Positions 1,481 through 47,421 of a stretch of DNA of 64,000 nucleotides are shown here, piece by piece. Made by a program: the position numbers and the translations under genes. Position 1 is the first letter of the stretch. Every line of letters begins with the position of its first letter. The notes beneath the pieces were generated by a model that was not told the origin of the DNA, ran no database searches, and was given only the letters and a program-made list of their open reading frames with translations. Source of the stretch: a virus. Where the stretch lies: the IMG/VR virus record IMGVR_UViG_3300042923_000601, positions 1 to 64,000 of that record. One strand, 5' to 3'.

Positions 1481-3235
1481 TTATACTTCGCCTTCAAAAT
1501 CAACTGCGTCAACAAAGATCGTATTCGCTGTAGCCAGCACGATCGCTGTATCAATTGCACGCTCAACGATGTTGATATCCGTTTGGATTGGATTAATAAC
1601 ACGGTTCGTGGAATCGCCGCGAAGGTTGATAGGGCCCGCGAATACTGGAACTGGCACGGTGTAACGGCTCATATCAATGCGGCCATTTTCATCAACCAGT
1701 TTCTTACCGGCATTCGTTACGATCAGGTCCATAAATTCAGTGCGGCTTATTGCAGTGCGGTTTTGAACTAAGCGATAGTATACCTTGAGATAAGCTTCCA
1801 TCAGGGAATCCAGCAACAAACTGAATACGCTGATCTGCTGTTCTTGAGGTTTACCAGTGAAGCCGTCTTTCGTTTGAGCCATGAGTGAGAACAACGATGC
1901 AAGGGTGTCCACATTACATCCCACTCCGTAACCAGAGCGAAGTGCAGACTGAACAGCCTTCAATCCGTCCTCAACAAGGCGAAGGTTAATTGATTTGCGT
2001 TGCACAGAATCGCCGCCTACATAGATGGTACGAACACCATTCGTGATAACCTGAAGGCGTTTTTTGAGGGCGTTCAATTCCACCCCAGCACGGGTAACAT
2101 CTTCCTGCGGAAGCAGGCCGGACGCTACCGACGTGACGATCTCATTGATTTTTTCTTGAAGCCATGACACGTGACGATCCAGCGAGTCGGATTGTTTGAA
2201 CCCGGACAGCGTGATCTTACGGTCTCTGATTATGACAGTGTTAGCATAACCTTTGGCCAACCCAGCGATGTTATTGGCATCAATAGTCGTGTTTTCTTCA
2301 TACCCAGCAGCGCCAGTCACCTTGACCAGGTCGTTATAGTCGTCGCTGTCTTGAATGCTATTAGCACGAGTGTATACGATTGCCATATTCAGGAAAATCT
2401 CAGGCTGACTTTGATTGAGCGCTTCAATGAAGCGCACTGCATTCTGGTTTACACCGCTGCAGAAGATCACAAGCGATTTATCAGCAGCCTTCAGTTTACG
2501 AGCGTACTCGTACAGGCTGTTTTCAATGTTTACTTTACCGTCGATAACCAAGATTTCAGCATTCCGCAAGAAACTTGCATTGACACCGTCCTGATTAGCA
2601 AAGGCAGAATGCATCAATTGCCCGCTGATGTTAAGGCCACTTGTGGATTGGATGTAGGTATTACTGCCCATGCTGATATCCAGCAGCACATTCTCATTAG
2701 CCAAATCGTTATTACCGTTGTACAGTTCAACCAGGACATCAGCCAGTTCGCTATTACCGTCAACTGAAGTGAATGCCAGGTCGAAAACATCGGCTGCTGT
2801 GAGTGCTGTTGCACCGTTCTCCAGATCATTAACCAACGCACCGATAATGGTAGATGCAGCGTCCTGAATCTGGGATGGGGTGTATTTAGCAAACAGTTCC
2901 TTGTTATTGCGCAGTTCATGGTATACCGCAGCGGTTACCAGAATTGCAGTTGTTGTACCGTCACCTACATGGTGCGCCTGATGACCAGCCACTTCGAATA
3001 CCATCTGGTATACGGCCTCAGCTGTAGCGTCATCAAATCGTATCATGTTCAAGTTTTCGTAGCCGTCTTTCGACGCATTGATTTCGTTTTTGATTTTGAA
3101 GATGTTATGCGTCCCGAACGGTCCGTATGTAGCGCCAACTGTATTTTCAATAATCGACATAACTTGAGCCACTGTTCCGTGGAACGTGGTTTTAGGCGAA
3201 ACGTTTTGTTTAAAATAGCGACGATCCATTGGCAT
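1481..3235 (-). CDS. GroEL-like chaperonin (584 aa)
   Basis: This is a group I-type chaperonin subunit expected to fold phage or host proteins in an ATP-driven ring. Visible family hallmarks are a GP.G turn and KDG (residues 38-58), the nucleotide-binding GDGTTTA at 91-97 (aspartate equivalent to GroEL D87), an apical GLNISGQLMHSAF segment matching GroEL's substrate-binding entry, VEDGL at 421-425 (equivalent to D398) and a GYGVG turn after it. It is longer than bacterial GroEL (about 548) and lacks the GGM tail. No GroES-like gene is seen in the window. The start at 3235 has AAGGGAG upstream. Phage chaperonins are known from EL, OBP and AR9. Confidence 0.9.
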   Translation of the reverse strand: MPMDRRYFKQNVSPKTTFHGTVAQVMSIIENTVGATYGPFGTHNIFKIKNEINASKDGYENLNMIRFDDATAEAVYQMVFEVAGHQAHHVGDGTTTAILVTAAVYHELRNNKELFAKYTPSQIQDAASTIIGALVNDLENGATALTAADVFDLAFTSVDGNSELADVLVELYNGNNDLANENVLLDISMGSNTYIQSTSGLNISGQLMHSAFANQDGVNASFLRNAEILVIDGKVNIENSLYEYARKLKAADKSLVIFCSGVNQNAVRFIEALNQSQPEIFLNMAIVYTRANSIQDSDDYNDLVKVTGAAGYEENTTIDANNIAGLAKGYANTVIIRDRKITLSGFKQSDSLDRHVSWLQEKINEIVTSVASGLLPQEDVTRAGVELNALKKRLQVITNGVRTIYVGGDSVQRKSINLRLVEDGLKAVQSALRSGYGVGCNVDTLASLFSLMAQTKDGFTGKPQEQQISVFSLLLDSLMEAYLKVYYRLVQNRTAISRTEFMDLIVTNAGKKLVDENGRIDMSRYTVPVPVFAGPINLRGDSTNRVINPIQTDINIVERAIDTAIVLATANTIFVDAVDFEGEV

Positions 3236-16384: not shown

Positions 16385-17137
16385 TTAGTCAAAACCTTTG
16401 ACGGTTTTGAATCCAAGTTGTTTCACCGCGTCAGCATCCCAGGATTCATCAATATGCATACACCAAACCTTTGATCGAAGAGACTTCGGAATCAGCCGAG
16501 ATAACTCTTCCAATGGCAGGTGTACATAACCGTTATATGAGAACGACTGGGTGTCTTGATAGATGTAGTCCAACTCATCCGACCGCAACATTCGCAGGAT
16601 CACAGGCGGAATCGACCGGCTGTCCCCACTGTAATAAACCTTAGAGCCTTTAAAGAAGTCGATGAACTCGAAGAGGTATCCATAACATACTTTCAAGTCG
16701 TCATCATGCTCAGTACGAACCGGTGTTACGATGATCCGTCCCAGCTTCTCGCCAATGGTGACGATATTGCGATGACCGCCAAGGTCAAGTCGAACCAAAT
16801 TATACAACGTACTCTTGACACCCATGACATGGAATAAGTTGAGTACAGATTGGGTGTCAGGTGTGTATATGGTAACACCCGGACGGAACGCTCTATCTTT
16901 ATAATACATATTGAAAATCAGAGTGCCGAGACTTCCGACGTGATCGGGGTGAAAATGGGTAATGAATACGTGCACGTGACTTATACCCTGAAGTACATTA
17001 TACCGTTTCAGTCGATCATATGTAGTTTCACCACAATCGATCATGAATAGGTCCTTATCATCAGGGAATTTTAAGTACGCGCCGTTATTACCCAAGCGTG
17101 TGTTAAAAGCTGATCCAGTGCCAATAAATGATAACAT
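16385..17137 (-). CDS. MBL-fold metallo-hydrolase, RNase Z-like (250 aa)
   Basis: Metallo-beta-lactamase fold: the first strand FIGTGSAFNTRLGNNGAYL, an ID.GE strand, then the zinc motif THFHPDHVGSLG near residue 68, a later histidine near RTEHDDD, and YYSGDSR supplying the bridging aspartate. The opening GTGSA and overall order resemble RNase Z and related phosphodiesterases, which act on tRNA 3' ends or cyclic/oligonucleotides. A signalling-nucleotide hydrolase countering host defence is an alternative. ATG 17137 follows GGGAGGAA. Confidence 0.85.
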   Translation of the reverse strand: MLSFIGTGSAFNTRLGNNGAYLKFPDDKDLFMIDCGETTYDRLKRYNVLQGISHVHVFITHFHPDHVGSLGTLIFNMYYKDRAFRPGVTIYTPDTQSVLNLFHVMGVKSTLYNLVRLDLGGHRNIVTIGEKLGRIIVTPVRTEHDDDLKVCYGYLFEFIDFFKGSKVYYSGDSRSIPPVILRMLRSDELDYIYQDTQSFSYNGYVHLPLEELSRLIPKSLRSKVWCMHIDESWDADAVKQLGFKTVKGFD

Positions 17138-17192
17138 TGATAATTCCTCCCATACGAATTTATCTAATGTACGGGAAATAATTATAAAAAAA

Positions 17193-17217
17193 GAGAGGTT
17201 GCCGAAGCAACCCCTCA
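17193..17217 (-). terminator. Rho-independent terminator
   Basis: GAGGGGTTGC-TTCG-GCAACCTCTC followed by a long T run on minus. Confidence 0.85.
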
Positions 17218-17224
17218 CGTAATG

Positions 17225-37909: not shown

Positions 37910-39484
37910 TTAATTACGCCCGTGTAGGTAGCTTTCCTTCCATTTTAAAACAATCCGCCCTTGATCATCTCTGACATAAGGTGCGGCCTTAGGTTTCGGT
38001 GCAATAGGTTCGTCGCCTACGTCAATTGTGATGATTTTACCCTGTTTAGCCTTCTTCCCAAGGTAAGGAAGACGATTCTGATACTGCGCATATGCTTCTT
38101 GGAAGTCAGAATTCAGTACTTCCATATAATAAACTGACTTGTTATTCTTCCGAAGACGACCGGGTAACTGGTCAGCATAAATCTTATTGCTATACGGGAT
38201 GGTGTTAATCATAAATTGAAGATTATAAATATCGGCACCTGTACCAAGTCCTTTTTCTGTACCTAAAATGATATCCTTCTCAAGCTCTCGCTCACGGTCC
38301 TTCTTCGGAATATCACTTGTATACATCCCGACGCTATACTCCGGGAAATTTCTCTCTAAAAACTTAGCCACTACCGTTAGGAATGCCTTAGTAGACCCGA
38401 GAATCAGGAGCTTACCCCCATCTTCTCTATACGGCACCATAATGGTATTGATGGCTTTATAAATCGCATTAAAAAAGGGAACCCGTGCGCCTTGGTGTTC
38501 GACGAGATAGTCCGAATACTTGGCTGCCGATAGTCCATCCTTTGTCTTACAGTTGATTCGTTGCTTTGTGGTTGGTTTATGGTGAAACGTGAATATGATC
38601 ATAATGATATGGTTCGTCTCAATAGTGGCGAACTCTTTACCGATGATAGGCACTCGGCTAAAGAGCCGCTGGAAGATGCGATCTTCATCACGGTCGCCTC
38701 GTCCTGCAGAGGATGTAAGGTAGAAGTTCCGTTTGACGTTAGTGTAGCAGTCGATCTTCACATTGGTTGCAAAGTCCCAGTGCGCTTCATCAATAACCTT
38801 AATCCCGGCTTTGGTCTTCTCAATCACCTTCTGGAAAGTATCCCAGCCGTGTTGACGGGCAAAGGAACGAACTGTCGCTCGGTTAAAGATAAAAATATCC
38901 ACGTCTTCCCTTTCACCTTTTAGGATAGAAAGGCAGTCTTTAGAACCCTTTACAATCATGACTGAGGACTTAGTCTTTGTGGTAGCTTCGAGTATACCCT
39001 CATACCATTGATCAGCGATTCGACTTGCTTGACCGGGTGTAAAGATAACCGCCTTATGCCCAAAGTAGGACATGGCTGCTGTCATACAATAGGTTTTACC
39101 CTTACCGGTATCAAGGTCACAGTATAGCTGGGAATGCCCCTTGGTGTATTGATACCTCTTATTCCCTCCGCAGAAAAAAGAAATAACTTCAAGCTGCAAA
39201 GGCTCACGTGGCTCACGGAGGAGTTGAATATCCATCCGCTCGTATGCTTGAGGTTTTGTGTTCACCTCAACAGTTCGGTCTAATGTAGAGGCAAGCTTAT
39301 CAGCTGAATATCCTCTTGGGATGCGAAGCTCGCGTTTATCTTCGTCATACGCGAACCCTACAATTTCTCTTTGATAAATCCGGTTATTGAAGACTGACAA
39401 TTGATTCTCAATCGTGGTACAGTCTCCTAAGTCATAGTTGGGAATGACATAATGCGAAAAATTAGCAATCACTGTATCTGGCAT
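37910..39484 (-). CDS. SF2 DNA/RNA helicase, UvsW-like (524 aa)
   Basis: ATP-dependent helicase with motif I DLDTGKGKTYC (about 122), motif II VIDEAHWDF (about 230), motif III-like YLTSSAG, and motif VI QLPGRLRKN (about 440). Domain order matches T4 UvsW and related phage helicases, which unwind branched recombination intermediates and R-loops. The GKGKT and PGRLRK forms are typical of such phage members. ATG 39484 follows AGGAGGTTAG; a 59-codon upstream extension runs through the intergenic hairpin and is rejected. Confidence 0.9.
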   Translation of the reverse strand: MPDTVIANFSHYVIPNYDLGDCTTIENQLSVFNNRIYQREIVGFAYDEDKRELRIPRGYSADKLASTLDRTVEVNTKPQAYERMDIQLLREPREPLQLEVISFFCGGNKRYQYTKGHSQLYCDLDTGKGKTYCMTAAMSYFGHKAVIFTPGQASRIADQWYEGILEATTKTKSSVMIVKGSKDCLSILKGEREDVDIFIFNRATVRSFARQHGWDTFQKVIEKTKAGIKVIDEAHWDFATNVKIDCYTNVKRNFYLTSSAGRGDRDEDRIFQRLFSRVPIIGKEFATIETNHIIMIIFTFHHKPTTKQRINCKTKDGLSAAKYSDYLVEHQGARVPFFNAIYKAINTIMVPYREDGGKLLILGSTKAFLTVVAKFLERNFPEYSVGMYTSDIPKKDRERELEKDIILGTEKGLGTGADIYNLQFMINTIPYSNKIYADQLPGRLRKNNKSVYYMEVLNSDFQEAYAQYQNRLPYLGKKAKQGKIITIDVGDEPIAPKPKAAPYVRDDQGRIVLKWKESYLHGRN

Positions 39485-39523
39485 GACTAACCTCCTAAGA
39501 AAGAAAAAATAACGAGCAGAGTA

Positions 39524-39548
39524 GAGAAGGGCAATTACGCCCTTCTCC
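39524..39548 (-). terminator. Hairpin terminator
   Basis: GAGAAGGGC / GCCCTTCTC between the 113-aa gene and the helicase gene; T run weak. Confidence 0.6.
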
Positions 39549-39572
39549 ATCTGTTTTATACCCGATAGGTTA

Positions 39573-39914
39573 CTACTCTTTGCGATATACCATTGGATGC
39601 CGATGAATATGCATACACACAACATCTCGTGGCGATAATACCCATTTAGCATCTTCGACAAAACTGGCCTTGAACTCGTCCACTGTGAAATCTAACTCGG
39701 ATTCCAGAATTAATTCACGGTATGACTCGTCCTCGGTTTCAAATGTAATAATCCACGCGGGGTCTACATTTGTCCGGAATCCTTCTACAAAATGTATAGT
39801 AACGATGTCCGGATTATCAACGTCCACACCCTCAGGTGGTTCATACATCGCTCTTAAATAGTTCTGCAGTGCACATTCAATTTTTATGAATTTTTCATTA
39901 TCAATACTATTCAT
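39573..39914 (-). CDS. Hypothetical acidic protein (113 aa)
   Basis: ATG 39914 follows GAGGTG. Strongly acidic (PPEGVDVDNPDIVTIHF, ETEDESYRELILESELD) with a C-terminal histidine cluster MHIHRHPMVYRKE. No family recognised. Confidence 0.7.
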   Translation of the reverse strand: MNSIDNEKFIKIECALQNYLRAMYEPPEGVDVDNPDIVTIHFVEGFRTNVDPAWIITFETEDESYRELILESELDFTVDEFKASFVEDAKWVLSPRDVVCMHIHRHPMVYRKE

Positions 39915-41649: not shown

Positions 41650-42831
41650 CTACAGCGGGCGGTTAATAGCATACCGACGGCCGAAGATGTTACATGTACC
41701 AGCACATTTCAGATTCGGGATTTGAACCTTCGATTTCAGGTCAGCGCCTGATTGAAGTTTCGGATAATCCAGATGAATCTGGGAATGCTCATCCGAGTTA
41801 TTCAGGTATTCGCGGAACGTATCAGCCGTTTGCATAGCGATTTCGCGCTGAGCATTGCAGCAGATGCGCTCGAACGTTTTCAAGATAAAGTGCTCGTATG
41901 TACCGCGTTCAACGATGTCAACCATCGTCGCCTGTGGGTAGGACAAAGCGCCTCTGTAATTAAGGTCAACACGCCATTCGTCCTCAAATGGTTTGACGAT
42001 CTCAGGAACGTAATAGTCCTCAGCATCTTCATCCAGATAGAAGGAGTGATTCAGGGTACGATGCCGCTGCGCTTGAGCATATTGAGCTAAACTGCCCTTA
42101 TACGTCGTGCAATAGACATCCCCATAGTATGGTGTGAACTTCCGTTCATGCAGATGAAGCATGGACAGCTTCCGGTTTTTGAGCCTAGCATTCAGCTCGT
42201 CCACCCGGAATGGCTGCAGTGTATCCAGAAATTCTGGGATATAACTTGCAAGCTTCCCGCCGAATCCGCCGTCATATTTACCCGTAGAGGCGTCGATGTT
42301 GGCATCGTGGAAGTCTTCCAGCATATGAATCAGATAATTCAGTTGATGCAGGTTAGTTGTGTATACCATCGTTGTAGGTGTAAATACACTGAGTTGATAA
42401 CGAGCGTTTTCAATCGCGTATTTTGTCACCTGCAGTGGTGTAAGTTTAGGAAACTGTTCAGCAATGATCGGTGTCAGCTTGTCAATCCATTTACGATAGA
42501 CTACGCCTTCGTCACCCATTGCCTTCATCGTTGTATAACGTGCAGACTTCTCCGAGGTCGTATACATACCTTCGTTGTTCAGCAGCATGGCAAGCGCCTT
42601 CGGGATATCCGAAAAAACAAAGGTGTAATTCACATGACCATACACCGAGTGGTGTCCACTACCCAGTGTCTGGTCGATACGCCGCTGTGTGCGCTCGGTG
42701 TCTTCAGCCATAATAGCTTCGACGGTATCCTTCATGTAACATACTCCTGCGGCATGAGACGAGAACCCAAGGGCCTCGTCCAATGGCAGGATAAATTGCG
42801 GCTTCGTTGAGCCCATAACCACTGTCTTCAT
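41650..42831 (-). CDS. Fused double ThyX, flavin-dependent thymidylate synthase (393 aa)
   Basis: Makes dTMP from dUMP using FAD and methylene-tetrahydrofolate. Two ThyX-like domains are joined. Domain 1 (about 1-175) has GSGHHSVYGHVNYTF (57-71), SEKSARY (93-99) and ENARYQLSVFTPTTMVYTTN. Domain 2 (about 230-345) has QRHRTLNHSFY with RHR at 256-258, and YPQATMVDIVERG...NAQREI. The usual single motif RHR-x7-SxRY is thus split: domain 1 lost RHR, domain 2 lost SxRY. Ordinary ThyX is 220-250 residues. ATG 42831 follows GGAGGAG. Confidence 0.85.
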   Translation of the reverse strand: MKTVVMGSTKPQFILPLDEALGFSSHAAGVCYMKDTVEAIMAEDTERTQRRIDQTLGSGHHSVYGHVNYTFVFSDIPKALAMLLNNEGMYTTSEKSARYTTMKAMGDEGVVYRKWIDKLTPIIAEQFPKLTPLQVTKYAIENARYQLSVFTPTTMVYTTNLHQLNYLIHMLEDFHDANIDASTGKYDGGFGGKLASYIPEFLDTLQPFRVDELNARLKNRKLSMLHLHERKFTPYYGDVYCTTYKGSLAQYAQAQRHRTLNHSFYLDEDAEDYYVPEIVKPFEDEWRVDLNYRGALSYPQATMVDIVERGTYEHFILKTFERICCNAQREIAMQTADTFREYLNNSDEHSQIHLDYPKLQSGADLKSKVQIPNLKCAGTCNIFGRRYAINRPL

Positions 42832-42834
42832 CGG

Positions 42835-43083
42835 TTATTCTCCTCCATTTAGTTGTACCACACTCCATGAATCTTGAATAAAATCCATCATCATGGAGGT
42901 GACTTTGGTTTGGAGAGGCTTGCTCTCTGGGTAAACCACGAGCACGCCGTCCCCGTTTTCAATAATATGTGTACCGGGAAAGGTATCTGGTGGATACATT
43001 TTCCCTCGTTTACTATGTATGACGCCGGTATCTTCTAAACTAGCGCCACGCATGAATAGAGCAACTTCGCCGCTGATATCCAA
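42835..43083 (-). CDS. Hypothetical protein (82 aa), TTG start
   Basis: TTG 43083 follows GGAAGGGG. Begins MDISGEVALFMRGASL, beta-rich with VLVVYPESKPL. It lies directly before ThyX with the ThyX ribosome binding site in its last codons (NGGE), so the two are coupled. No family recognised. Confidence 0.65.
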   Translation of the reverse strand: MDISGEVALFMRGASLEDTGVIHSKRGKMYPPDTFPGTHIIENGDGVLVVYPESKPLQTKVTSMMMDFIQDSWSVVQLNGGE

Positions 43084-43210
43084 GCGGTATTTCCCCTTCC
43101 ATATATCGTTTTAGCCTATTCACTTTTTTATTCCCTAAATTCACCAATAGACCAATAGCTTGTTCGTACCATTTGTTAAATGACACCGGTATCGTCACTT
43201 GTTGTTGCAT
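43040..43210 (-). CDS. Candidate small basic protein (56 aa)
   Basis: Frame from ATG 43210 (MQQQVTIPVSFNKWYEQ...), overlapping the end of the 245-aa gene by 35 bases and the start of the 82-aa gene by 44. It would fill the only gap in this operon, and the sequence looks protein-like (LVNLGNKKVNRLKRYM), but the ribosome binding site is weak. Confidence 0.35.
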   Translation of the reverse strand: MQQQVTIPVSFNKWYEQAIGLLVNLGNKKVNRLKRYMEGEIPLGYQRRSCSIHAWR

Positions 43211-43913
43211 CCCATAAGTGGTACAGATGATACTTCTTTGTAAAGAGTGCGTATGCAACCCGAAGCACCGTCTTACGTTGACGCAGTGGGAACTCCACCG
43301 TTTGGCGAGGACTGAGAACCAATAGCGCATTCGATGTCATTCGAACTTCGATATAGTCAACGTCTCGCCTTACGGTAGGGTCATCTTGTTTAATAAGATA
43401 TGGGAAGTCGGTGTTGATAGCTGGCAGTGAACGAAGTGAATGGTGCAGATACTCCGTGTCCGTCAGATACAAGAAGAACGAAAAGACAGTGGACTTCCCA
43501 AGAAGATTGTTCAAGATATACGAACCAAGGATGTCAAGCTTGGCTATATTGTCCAGTACATCCAAGTACGTTCCTTTAGCAATGATCTCGGATGACTGGT
43601 ACAGAATTTTATCGAATAACGCGAAGCACTCGTGCGTATCGTCACGATACTTACGCAGCATCGTATCGGCATGACGACGAACCTCCGCCTCATAGGTTTC
43701 CTTTGTAGATAGCAGTTCCTTATTGGTAATACGCACGGTCATATGACCTTCCGGCGCTTTGCGTTCCATGCGAGCCAGCGTACGTTTCATATCCGATAGC
43801 TGACGTTCAGCTGCTTCGAGCTTGGTTTCAGTAACTGCCAGTTGAGTAACGAGCCCGTCTTTCTCTCTGGTTGCTTCTGTTGCAACTCTCTTCCATCCAA
43901 AAATACTCGTCAT
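43176..43913 (-). CDS. Hypothetical protein with N-terminal coiled coil (245 aa)
   Basis: Residues 10-55 form a coiled coil (TKLEAAERQLSDMKRTLARM). The C-terminal part is helical and aromatic (VFSFFLYLTDTEYLHHSL). ATG 43913 follows AAAGGGAG. First gene of the operon leading to ThyX. No family recognised; may oligomerise. Confidence 0.7.
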   Translation of the reverse strand: MTSIFGWKRVATEATREKDGLVTQLAVTETKLEAAERQLSDMKRTLARMERKAPEGHMTVRITNKELLSTKETYEAEVRRHADTMLRKYRDDTHECFALFDKILYQSSEIIAKGTYLDVLDNIAKLDILGSYILNNLLGKSTVFSFFLYLTDTEYLHHSLRSLPAINTDFPYLIKQDDPTVRRDVDYIEVRMTSNALLVLSPRQTVEFPLRQRKTVLRVAYALFTKKYHLYHLWDATTSDDTGVI

Positions 43914-44014: not shown

Positions 44015-45199
44015 CTACTCGTTGATGAATAGGAGACTGTAGCTTGAAGACTTTGTCTTCTTGTAGGTCAGTGGATTCTTAAGCTGTTGTTTAACCTTCT
44101 CAAACATCAGTCCTGCGATAACAGAACCGCTTAGGATTGCAGCGTCATTCATGCTGACCATCCGGTAGTTAGAAGGTTCCTGTTTAACCGTCCAGTCTGG
44201 GATATCAAGCTCATTATTCTTATCCCGGATCAGGTTACGGATAATCATTTCAATGTGTACCGAAGGCGTCTGGATTCCCCCTTGACGGAAGAGCTTGTTC
44301 AGCACCTTGATGAATTCGTTATAGTCAGTTACACCATCCAGCATCTTCTTACCCTTCTGGATAAACTTCGTAAGCTGCTTGATTGGTTTAGTCAACTCGT
44401 TATTACTAACGCGCAGGAAGAAGAACGGCTCAGTAGCATCAATGTGCTTCAGTTCGATCAGGCATTCCTCTTCATCCGAGTCGATGCTGAAGAACTGACT
44501 GTCACGAAGAAGTCCATACATCTGCTTACTGAGGTATAGGTGCATGCCGGTTTCTTCCCGGATTTCAATCATCTCACCGGTTTTCTTGTCACGGAGCGTA
44601 ACCTTCTCCATGTAATAGTTGTCATATTTATCATAGGCTTCTTCCGACTCCATCTTGATGTCTTGCCGTAACATGACAATCACATACTTGGACTCTTTGA
44701 TCTCAGGGTTGAGCTTAAAGAGCCAGCCGTTTGTGTTGACCAAGATGTTGTAGGTGTCAATGAGCACAACCTTGGCGCTGTTTGTAGCAAGCGCATGTCG
44801 AGCAGATAGCCCCAGCTGCGTCTTTGCTTCATTTGTGTCGATACCTGCGAATTTACCTGCATGCATACCATAGTTTACGTTATAGAGTAAGCCGTAGCAT
44901 ACCTTGCAGATTTTACCGTTCTTCACACCGCAAGTAGCCGGTGATCGGAGTTCCACATTCTTACCAATAAGATGTGTATCCTTGGTGCTGATAACCTTGA
45001 ATTTCTTAGGGCCGACTTTCATAAACCGGCCGTCATAGCTTGTCAGATCAGCCTGCGAGTCAATACGTGTAGAGTACAGATTCACAGTGTCGCAGGAATA
45101 GTGTGGGTCTTCATTAAGCGTCACGTTCTCCGTTGCGAAGTTAATGTGGCGACCAAAGTACCCAGCTTCTGCTACACCCATCTGCATGATACTTGCCTT
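44015..45199 (-). CDS. RNA polymerase beta-prime C-terminal subunit, exon 2
   Basis: Encodes the zinc-binding and trigger-loop side of a multisubunit RNA polymerase. YSCDT followed by SPATCGVKNGKICKVCYG gives four cysteines matching the second zinc site of bacterial RpoC (C814, C888, C895, C898). NEAKTQLGLSARHA matches RpoC's GEPGTQLTMRTFH at the trigger loop, and VHIEMIIRNLIR matches the C-terminal VHIE..VRQML. By itself the frame starts at ATG 45226 with no convincing start, because its first nine codons are intron. Exon 2 supplies about 394 residues. The catalytic DFDGD half is not here. Confidence 0.88.
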   Translation of the reverse strand, partial: KASIMQMGVAEAGYFGRHINFATENVTLNEDPHYSCDTVNLYSTRIDSQADLTSYDGRFMKVGPKKFKVISTKDTHLIGKNVELRSPATCGVKNGKICKVCYGLLYNVNYGMHAGKFAGIDTNEAKTQLGLSARHALATNSAKVVLIDTYNILVNTNGWLFKLNPEIKESKYVIVMLRQDIKMESEEAYDKYDNYYMEKVTLRDKKTGEMIEIREETGMHLYLSKQMYGLLRDSQFFSIDSDEEECLIELKHIDATEPFFFLRVSNNELTKPIKQLTKFIQKGKKMLDGVTDYNEFIKVLNKLFRQGGIQTPSVHIEMIIRNLIRDKNNELDIPDWTVKQEPSNYRMVSMNDAAILSGSVIAGLMFEKVKQQLKNPLTYKKTKSSSYSLLFINE

Positions 45200-46551
45200 C
45201 CTACCTGGTACCTTCACATAGTTCATTACACTATGCAGTTCGCACGGTTTATACGCCGTTGAACTTCTCCGGTTTTTCTCCGGATGTCGAGACTATATCT
45301 TGTCCATAGGGAGACATAAGTCTTCCCCTTAGGACCCTGCCATTTCCATTTAAGAGCATCTCACTCACCCATTTGGGCCGTACGCCTGTTGCCGAATTGC
45401 ACGGCTACTCACTGTTGTCACAGCTTTCGGCTAGTCGTTGAACGTGCTACTATCATATCTTTGCAGATTCACGGAGTGGTTAGTCCCGTTAGTCTACTCC
45501 CCTTAAACTTTTATACAATGAATATATTTCTTCTTTGGTGAAGTATTGGTCTGATATACCTGGCTGAACTCGTTTTCGGTATACATTTTCCACAAAACCT
45601 ATATCAATAGCTAGTCGGCCTGCGATATAGTTATGAGGTCTTCCGGCTACCAAATATCTACAAACTGCATGAACTGTCTCGTCGTCATACTTTCGCTGAC
45701 GTTTGCGGTTTGGTTTGATATTGTATTGATCAGATATTGATTTGTACTTCTTACCAATTGCTATCTCAACCAATAGTGAGAAAAATCGTTTGTTGTCTTT
45801 AACGTTAGATGTGCCAATTATAGCGAGTCCAATCTGACCATAATCCCAATTATCAACTTCCATCATCTTACAGACCTGGTGTACTTGGTCATATGTTAAC
45901 TGGGATTTGATCAAACCATACTCTATGGCATGCATAGTGTTTCTATGAAACGATGCCCATTCCAGATTCTTGTAGTAGTTGTACGTTGAATCACCGCTTA
46001 GATGATTCACTATTGGTAAGTTATCGGGGTTAGGGATAAATGCTAGTGCAACAAGCCGACTGACCATGTAATATGACATGCCATTCGTAGTCCCAACCTC
46101 GCTCAATTTAACAACTACCTTAGGATAACCGGATTTATCAACTTTAGTTTGGAATTTTCTCTCTATACCACGGTCTTTAGAGTATAACCGACCATGGTTT
46201 GATATTAAATAACGTCCACTTATTGCATTGCCGTCTTTGGCGTCATATACCAGAGGACGCCATTCTTCTCTGTCTTTCGGTATCAATCTTAACATGATGT
46301 AATGTCATCCTCTCGTATTAACCTCCATCTCCAACTAGATTCATGATCATAGGGGGATATGATAATACTTCGCTGCTGATAGCACATTTGTTGCAACCCT
46401 TAGACTTACTATCGTCAATAGGTTAGACCTCACCTTGTTTCTGGTTTCCCTCCTGCATCCCGACCAAGGGATTAGGTGTGAGGATTAAGCGCGTCCCAGC
46501 AATTAGACAGGTTATTCAACTGAGCGTTTCCACCCAGAGGGGGCAGTTCTT
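45200..46551 (-). ncRNA. Group I self-splicing intron (1352 nt)
   Basis: The intron interrupts the beta-prime gene between DAVG and KASIMQ. Core elements on minus: R-type GTTCAACGACTA (45432-45443) and S-type ACAAGATATAGTCT (45290-45303), whose GACTA and TAGTC form P7. The 5' exon ends GGGT, which pairs with GCCC just inside the intron and leaves the expected U-G wobble at the splice site; the intron ends in G. This places splice points after 46552 and before 45199 and keeps the frame. An HNH gene lies in a peripheral loop. Exact ends are inferred. Confidence 0.85.
45489..46295 (-). CDS. HNH homing endonuclease with NUMOD4 (268 aa)
   Basis: Intron-encoded endonuclease that should cut intronless copies of the beta-prime gene and drive intron spread. 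The N-terminal NUMOD4 block (EWRPLVYDAKDG...RYLISNHGRLYS) is followed by the HNH core PIVNHLSGDSTYNYYKNLEW and HRNTMHAIEYGL (about 95-130), then DNA-binding helices, including a helix-turn-helix-like YNIKPNRKRQRKYDDETVH. ATG 46295 has AGAGGATG upstream. Its A/T-rich composition differs from the surrounding exons, in keeping with mobility. Confidence 0.9.
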   Translation of the reverse strand: MLRLIPKDREEWRPLVYDAKDGNAISGRYLISNHGRLYSKDRGIERKFQTKVDKSGYPKVVVKLSEVGTTNGMSYYMVSRLVALAFIPNPDNLPIVNHLSGDSTYNYYKNLEWASFHRNTMHAIEYGLIKSQLTYDQVHQVCKMMEVDNWDYGQIGLAIIGTSNVKDNKRFFSLLVEIAIGKKYKSISDQYNIKPNRKRQRKYDDETVHAVCRYLVAGRPHNYIAGRLAIDIGFVENVYRKRVQPGISDQYFTKEEIYSLYKSLRGVD

Positions 46552-47421
46552 ACCCACTGCATCTACATACGCTGACTGAGGAGTGTTCAAACCATCACCC
46601 ATAAGGCTGCTGTTTGTTACATTCGGAATGGTGTCTCCGGACAGTGTCGGTTTAAATCCAACGTTAACGAAGACCTCTTGAGCTTGATGTTTGTTGATTA
46701 CACCTGCACGAATCATTGGTTTGAGCGGGTTGTTATCATCCATTTCATTCAGCAAGATATCAAAGAGCCGATCTGTTTGTCCCCGTAGGAATTGTTCGGC
46801 TTCGTCCACCCGGAATTTATCTGGGTCATCCTCAATATGCGTATTAAGAATATCGTTCACTTCTTTATTGCGACGAGCCATCTTAAGCATATCAAAGATT
46901 GAAATGGAGTTACCGAACAGTGGCCCCATTGCGGTTGCCAGCTTATTCATGAAGACTTGTGTATCGTGATAGATTTCAGATAACCCAGCTGCTGTAAACT
47001 GATCTTTATGGTTATCGGCAAATCGGTCAAAGAACTTCTTATACTCCGCATTCGTAAAGTGTTTCGGTGCAAAGATATCATCCTCTGTAACCGCAATACC
47101 GGTTACGATGTATGGCCGCCACATAATCATATTGAAGACGAAATGCACAAACGGCATTTCGAGTAGTGGACCATCACTGTCAAGCTTATATGCCATTTTA
47201 AGTTGTCCCAAATCTTCCATTGAGATGGACATGTCTTTGCGAGTTTCGGTGATGAGCATATTTACATAAGACTCGTACTCGGAGACCTCTGCAAACTCAT
47301 TGATTACCGGACACAGCTTCATTCCGTTATCTGCTGCGCCATATGCACGTAGTCTACCTTCGATATCCGACAAGCTGTAGTTCCAGCCTGCTAATACCGA
47401 CCCCTTTTTCTTCTTACCCAT
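46552..47421 (-). CDS. RNA polymerase beta-prime C-terminal subunit, exon 1
   Basis: Encodes 290 residues before the intron. The end, GFKPTLSGDTIPNVTNSSLMGDGLNTPQ in outline, matches the RpoC stretch GFKP.PSGEVIP...FRDGLS before the bridge helix. Without splicing the frame reads 11 more codons and stops at 46516. ATG 47421 follows GGGAGGTAACAG. Joined to exon 2 the subunit is about 684 residues, the size expected for the C-terminal beta-prime polypeptide of phiKZ/AR9-type polymerases. The other subunits must lie outside the window. Confidence 0.85.

Follow-up and report, generated by a model that had tools for sequence, protein, structure and literature searches.

A double ThyX encoded by a phage and its relatives, with the active-site motif divided between the two halves

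In a window of 64,000 nucleotides (the whole stretch of viral DNA analysed here, from an IMG/VR source record of 246,689 bases), a gene was found to encode a protein of two ThyX domains, P0001, between which the ThyX active-site motif is divided, half 1 bearing SxRY and half 2 bearing RHR. This division was confirmed to be fixed in the close family of the protein. As judged from sequence and structural models, P0001 most likely functions as a ThyX in which each pair of halves provides one composite site, as the initial annotation of this DNA had suggested. The evidence proved firmer and reached further than that annotation, and the protein represents a conserved asymmetric ThyX form.

ThyX is essential in many microbes and is a drug target. 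As identical chains share the site of ordinary ThyX, the roles of its two sides are difficult to tell apart. A natural protein that carries these sides on separate domains would allow each to be altered alone, and offers a clear test case of how a duplicated enzyme comes to depend on both copies.

Domain structure and division of the motif

The features of the gene, whose open reading frame starts with ATG, are summarized in Table 1. The Pfam model Thy1 (PF02511) matched residues 25-170 only, at 62.6 bits against a cut-off of 24.8, and the NCBIfam thyX equivalog (TIGR02170) matched half 1 only, at 38.6 bits, below its cut-off of 87.9. The NCBIfam cut-off was missed by P0001 and by the three close relatives tested (4/4), and genomes that rely on the double form may therefore look as if they were without a thymidylate synthase. 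A search of the solved structures with the P0001 sequence found none, the three matches being chance ones (best E 0.48).

Table 1. Positions in the window of the double thyX gene and its features, with the basis of each assignment
Feature	Position	Strand	Basis or conservation
Double thyX gene, P0001	41650..42831	(-)	393 aa plus stop; family of 85 relatives
Half 1 (D1), residues 1-212, ThyX domain	42196..42831	(-)	Pfam Thy1, VIA, hhalign
Half 2 (D2), about residues 225-393, ThyX domain without its own Pfam match	41653..42159	(-)	Separate model, Foldseek, VIA, hhalign
SxRY motif S96-A97-R98-Y99, half 1	42535..42546	(-)	Kept in 86/86
N86-E87-G88 at the RHR place, half 1	42568..42576	(-)	R78 and H79 equivalents 0/86; R80 2/86
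R144, equivalent to R147 of T. maritima ThyX, half 1	42400..42402	(-)	86/86
Q253-A-Q-R256-H257-R258, Q75 and RHR equivalents, half 2	42058..42075	(-)	Q253, R256, H257 and R258 each 86/86
R322, R174 equivalent, half 2	41866..41868	(-)	86/86; half 1 has L171 there, Arg at 171 in 0/86
C324, C376, C380, C-terminal cysteine cluster	41692..41862	(-)	Each 86/86; also in single-copy clostridial ThyX
GGAGGAG, likely ribosome-binding site	42840..42846	(-)	Sequence; 8 nt upstream of ATG

The folds of both halves were assessed with AlphaFold2 models. The model of the whole protein reached a pLDDT of 89.2 and a pTM of 0.89, the latter of which suggests a confident placement of D1 relative to D2. In the VIA comparison with T. 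maritima ThyX, half 1 gave a Z of 12.0 over about the first 216-222 model residues, and the two top rows aligned 162-165 residues at an rmsd of 2.5-2.8. Half 2, modelled separately (pLDDT 87.2, pTM 0.84), retrieved ThyX in Foldseek with a best E of 5.1e-5; in VIA, rows 1-47 were all ThyX or PolB at Z 8.6-11.6, the best of them covering 130 residues at Z 11.6 and rmsd 3.3, and the unrelated row 48 stood at Z 2.6. In single hhalign comparisons against single-copy ThyX, half 1 gave a probability of 98% (E 1.5e-13) and half 2 one of 84% (E 7e-6), and the two halves, compared directly with each other as profiles, gave no match. In one relative (from the genome G024), a second Thy1 match fell in half 2 at 18.8 bits, below the cut-off. 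The proposal of the initial annotation that both halves are ThyX domains was thus upheld by Pfam for half 1, by the folds, and by hhalign against single-copy ThyX. Pfam and the fold place P0001 in the ThyX superfamily; it is not a canonical ThyX, its motif being divided and its score lying below the NCBIfam cut-off.

That Pfam sees one domain, and that the halves have no profile match to each other, could also be read as signs of chance or artefact, with a second half that is not ThyX or a fusion that is an assembly error. This reading, however, is refuted by the 85 relatives in separate contigs that carry both halves and by the ThyX fold of half 2, and we consider its probability negligible.

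The division of the motif was counted over 86 sequences, comprising P0001, five proteins from phage contigs, and the best 80 of 191 genomic relatives. As had been noticed from the sequence of P0001, half 1 keeps SxRY without RHR, and half 2 keeps RHR without SxRY; the residues 93-99 first assigned to SxRY correspond to the longer stretch SEKSARY, of which SxRY itself occupies 96-99. In an alignment-free count, SxRY was present within the first 200 aa in 86/86 and after residue 220 in 0/86, and RHR after residue 200 in 86/86 and before it in 0/86. The family alignment showed S96, R98, Y99, E141, R144, and H60 (the H53 equivalent) to be conserved in half 1 of all 86 sequences. In half 2, a Ser at the S88 place was found in 0/86, an Arg at the R90 place in 1/86, a Tyr at the Y91 place in 0/86 (81 gaps), and, where the alignment is poor, an Arg at the R147 place in 2/86. 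The division is accordingly wider than the two motifs of the initial annotation, including also R144 and E141 in half 1 and Q253 and R322 in half 2, and since it is fixed in 86/86, it is more than chance. As single-copy controls, 33 sequences were used (TM0449, two phage proteins, and the 30 best Thy1 matches, a set biased to typical ones); R78, H79, R80, S88, R90, Y91, and R174 were kept in 33/33 of them, and Q75 and R147 in 32/33.

Half 2 is short, lacks a Pfam match, and has lost SxRY and R147, as would a structural or regulatory pseudo-domain, in which case half 1 alone would catalyse together with other half-1 domains. Against this, Q75, R78, H79, and R174 are lost from half 1 in 86/86, and exactly these residues are kept by half 2 in 86/86; retention of the very residues that half 1 has lost would be surprising in a pseudo-domain, and the reading is thus improbable.

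In addition to the divided motif, half 2 carries a C-terminal cysteine cluster, whose fourth cysteine (column 369) was found in 81/86 and is Val in P0001. In single-copy clostridial ThyX, such a cluster lies around R174 and in the tail, with at least three Cys after AQxE in 30/33. The cluster may bind metal in the bacterial relatives.

Distribution, genomic context, and probable role

The same fusion was sought in relatives, as the initial annotation had proposed, and was found with both halves in one frame at all 85 loci, 5 viral and 80 genomic, in frames of 353-417 aa (the 353-aa frame being cut by a contig edge). In the viral contigs, a scan with the half-1 motif TTSEKSARYT yielded 5 stretches, all encoding relatives with 34-54% identity to P0001, and an alignment scan yielded the same five contigs; single-sequence scans of the viral contigs yielded no relative with P0001 and none with the query from phage Carin-5. 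A scan with the half-2 motif AQAQRHRT yielded 15 stretches, of which 3 were known, 7 were new with the motif peptide, and 5 were new without it; the 7 new stretches with the peptide showed neither SxRY nor a BLASTP match. In the genome contigs, the alignment scan matched 271 stretches, 191 of which encode relatives, and the best 80 were kept. These 80 derive mostly from metagenome-assembled genomes (MAGs) of Clostridia and Bacilli and include a Woesearchaeota, an unplaced archaeon, and a Saccharibacteria record; relatives with the divided motif come from many gut bacteria. When a sample of 199 genomes from one host's phylum was searched with the close-family profile (E 1e-30), the centre genome alone was matched, and the form is thus widespread but uncommon. 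In a tblastn search of 50,697 phage records with P0001, no named phage relative was found at E 0.01; at E 10, five weak, partial places were obtained, and half 2 alone gave four weak places.

The window proteins include the marks of a jumbo phage, namely a family B DNA polymerase, a GroEL-like protein, an RNA polymerase beta-type subunit, a tail sheath, and a large terminase. The double thyX locus is conserved in four of the five related phage contigs (L013, L014, L016, and L017), where one flank holds relatives of the RNA polymerase piece at 44015-45226 and of the open reading frame at 43176-43913, and the other flank a relative of the helicase at 37910-39661. This shared position indicated that the gene is an old one of the phage group and not a recent capture.

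Several other genes of the window were observed in passing. The RNA polymerase beta-type gene is split into two pieces, 46516-47421 and 44015-45226, which cover phrog_3015 positions 28-232 and 246-647, respectively; the ~1.3 kb between the pieces (44015-47421 overall) holds an open reading frame at 45489-46295 with a weak NUMOD4 match below the cut-off, and in L013 both gene parts adjoin. The gap is likely a homing-endonuclease insertion, and no Rfam match to a group I intron was found in it up to E 1. The product of 16385-17218 (-) is a metallo-beta-lactamase-fold protein like the anti-Pycsar protein Apyc1 (45.4 bits against a cut-off of 50; phrog_392), possibly a counter-defence gene, and that of 1481-3235 (-) is a phage-encoded GroEL-like chaperonin (PF00118, 53.3 bits; phrog_5725, 194.9 bits). 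Four scans, each covering ten window proteins, named no modification gene.

To survey function, 50 of the 80 host genomes (those of the best 50 loci) were searched; they are mostly MAGs of untold completeness, and absences from them are accordingly soft. Thy1 was matched in 50/50, as a single match in 45. The second match was half 2 of the same frame in G024, a second double-length frame in G017, and a shorter frame in G023, G032, and G048 (3/50). ThyA was matched in 3/50, once with an internal stop and twice partially, and thymidine kinase in 19/50. In 44/50 host genomes, neither ThyA nor a further shorter Thy1 frame was found, and in 29/50, none of ThyA, another Thy1, and thymidine kinase was found. 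The whole phage record was searched for Thy1, ThyA, and TMP kinase only; it contained one Thy1 and a TMP kinase (78.6 bits), and ThyA gave no match. Given that the double form is the sole copy found in most of these host genomes and in the phage record, dTMP synthesis appeared to be its likeliest role.

PolB of Streptomyces cacaoi is a ThyX relative that methylates UMP. The fold comparison retrieved its chains 4p5a and 4p5b with either half, at lower rank than the best ThyX chains, in line with a possible methylation of another uracil nucleotide such as UMP by an enzyme that is not needed for dTMP. We regard this as very improbable in view of the 44/50 family genomes in which no other thymidylate synthase was found.

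The proposed composite site

Ordinary ThyX is a tetramer of identical chains, each of its sites being built from neighbouring subunits. Because the sites are thus shared among identical subunits, each ordinary ThyX chain must carry both residue sets. In the T. maritima structures, R147 presumably groups with S88 and R90, and R78 with Q75 and R174.

In the structure of a viral ThyX in complex with an inhibitor, Gln-75 (monomer A) and Gln-89 (monomer B) flank the ligand, which receives hydrogen bonds from Ser-88 of monomer B and from a strictly conserved residue of monomer A, Arg-182 (PMC3498832). By our own reading, Arg-182 would correspond to R174 of T. maritima ThyX. According to two further reports, R174 activates dUMP and the substitutions S88A, R90A, and Y91A slow the ThyX reaction (PMC8316439), and R78 faces the reduced flavin and H53 is supplied by a third monomer (PMC11940539). 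The sets kept in the family sequences appear to agree with the published division between subunits, half 2 corresponding to monomer A and half 1 to monomer B. If the four blocks (RHR with Q75, SxRY, R147, and R174) were each kept in either copy at random, full agreement would arise in 1 of 8 cases, both orders being counted; the strength of the agreement thus comes from fixed conservation and recurrence, and not from one protein.

The sequence division and the structural models together led us to favour, with a probability of roughly three in four, the reading that P0001 is an asymmetric ThyX that makes dTMP with one composite site per pair of halves. We infer that both residue sets meet in one site, that the assembly has two chains, and that the product is dTMP. 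In the proposed mechanism (T. maritima numbers), a duplication and fusion of ThyX would have come first; half 1 would have retained the side of the site with S88-x-R90-Y91, E144, and R147, and half 2 the side with Q75, R78-H79-R80, and R174. One contact of D1 with D2 would then give one complete site, and the mirror-image site, with RHR/R174 from half 1 and SxRY/R147 from half 2, would be dead. Two chains would take the place of the usual four, with two working sites versus four. The chemistry would be that of ThyX, namely the FAD- and methylenetetrahydrofolate-dependent methylation of dUMP to dTMP, and the phage's own TMP kinase would pass dTMP on toward dTTP.

Distant doubles and comparison with known systems

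A search of the open-access literature returned no description of a double ThyX whose motif is divided. The chlamydial ThyX, of about 500 aa, has been enzymatically characterised. If it is a double, the activity of a double ThyX is already known.

Length alone is not evidence of doubling, as was evident from several lookalikes. The ThyX of Gordonia phage Djokovic (406 aa), double by its length, carries RTRHASYAQESMRF in one stretch and was rejected as a single domain with extra sequence. Likewise rejected were L143-L145 and L148-L150 (387-432 aa), which consist of one ThyX domain that keeps all the residues and an insert of ~150 aa shortly after SxRY, possibly an intein; these six insert-bearing single-domain frames served as the length control.

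Thy1 was matched in 171 of the 199 genomes of the phylum examined above, and 29 of the 199, with two Thy1 matches or a weak best match, were chosen for a closer look, together with four fetched long-frame regions and one control region. This sample contained 16 distant double proteins from 16 genomes, of several groups and 428-699 aa in length (L133-L136, 461-505 aa; L154-L157, 658-699; L159-L160, 542-559; L161, 513; L162-L164 and L167, 428-475; L166, 486). Their first halves kept S88, R90, Y91, and R147 and lost R78 and H79 in 16/16. The second halves that aligned there kept RHR and lost R147 and Y91 in 15/15, and lost R90 in 14/15, L167 retaining an Arg at that place; for L166, half 2 could not be aligned over its RHR region. 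The division is unclean at R174, as 6 of the 14 first halves covered (L154-L157, L161, and L166) still have an Arg there, and that of H53 and of the FAD-contact residues N163 and R165 is inconsistent between families. In half 2 of the class II doubles (L133-L136), Q75 is replaced by His (4/4), and Ser remains at the S88 place in L133 and L134; the class II doubles tested passed the NCBIfam thyX cut-off (2/2). No reverse-order double was found among the 16 distant doubles or the 86 close-family members. A FastTree phylogeny of 85 halves over 206 columns, computed without half 2 of the close family to weigh one origin of the doubles against several, gave weak or middling support at the deep nodes. 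The broader proposition, to which we give an even chance, is that doubled ThyX is a general unnamed form, in which the symmetry of the ancestral site has been broken, with an N-terminal copy that always holds SxRY/R147 and a C-terminal copy that always holds RHR. This form would have had either a single, very early origin or repeated origins constrained to this order by the structure, and would have half as many sites per assembly.

Two further observations concern gene architecture. L154-L157 (Clostridia) have long extra segments before and between the halves. At L170 945-4973 (G211:C1), a Clostridia double thyX is split by a group II intron (RF02004, 154.7 bits; RF00029, 41.5 bits), whose apparent reverse transcriptase is encoded by an open frame of 620 aa, and the first exon frame ends in ...GIPIEDAR, at the R147 codon.

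Known proteins with a similar layout are those related to gp130 of Bacillus phage SP-15, which the authors of the SP-15 report hypothesise to be a hydroxymethyluridylate synthase with 5-hydroxymethyl-dUMP as the proposed product (PMC5977210). Like P0001, SP-15 gp130 and eight similar records represent ThyX relatives of double length. In the seven that were aligned (SP-15, Carin-5, GXN1, Va2, 150E35-1, 1.031.O, and YerA41), the order is similar by eye, half 1 having SxR and half 2 having R-[HQ]-[RHA]; YerA41, which has such a gp130-like gene, has T-modified DNA (PMC9023294). By analogy, P0001 might be a ThyX relative whose composite site yields 5-hydroxymethyl-dUMP, destined for a hypermodified thymine of the phage DNA, and not dTMP. 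Several lines of evidence render this unlikely. The gp130 group showed no significant similarity to the profiles of the present family (hhalign probability 0.2%, E 0.27), and BLASTP of P0001 against the Carin-5 protein gave nothing better than E 0.2. SP-15 retains a separate ordinary ThyX (gene 9), whereas P0001 is the sole thymidylate synthase found in its record, as the double form is in most host genomes tested, and the close family is bacterial and housekeeping-like, with 80 kept genome loci.

Compared with P0001, the distant Clostridia doubles likewise have two Thy1 domains in one frame and the same order of division, but they are longer, are unmatched by the close-family profile at E 1e-30, and have N163/R165/H53 and R174 divided otherwise than the close family or undivided. 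Single-copy ThyX (T. maritima TM0449; PF02511; TIGR02170) has RHR followed by SxRY in one domain, whereas neither domain of P0001 has both; it shares its fold with both halves of P0001, and its active-site residues are the same as those of the two halves summed.
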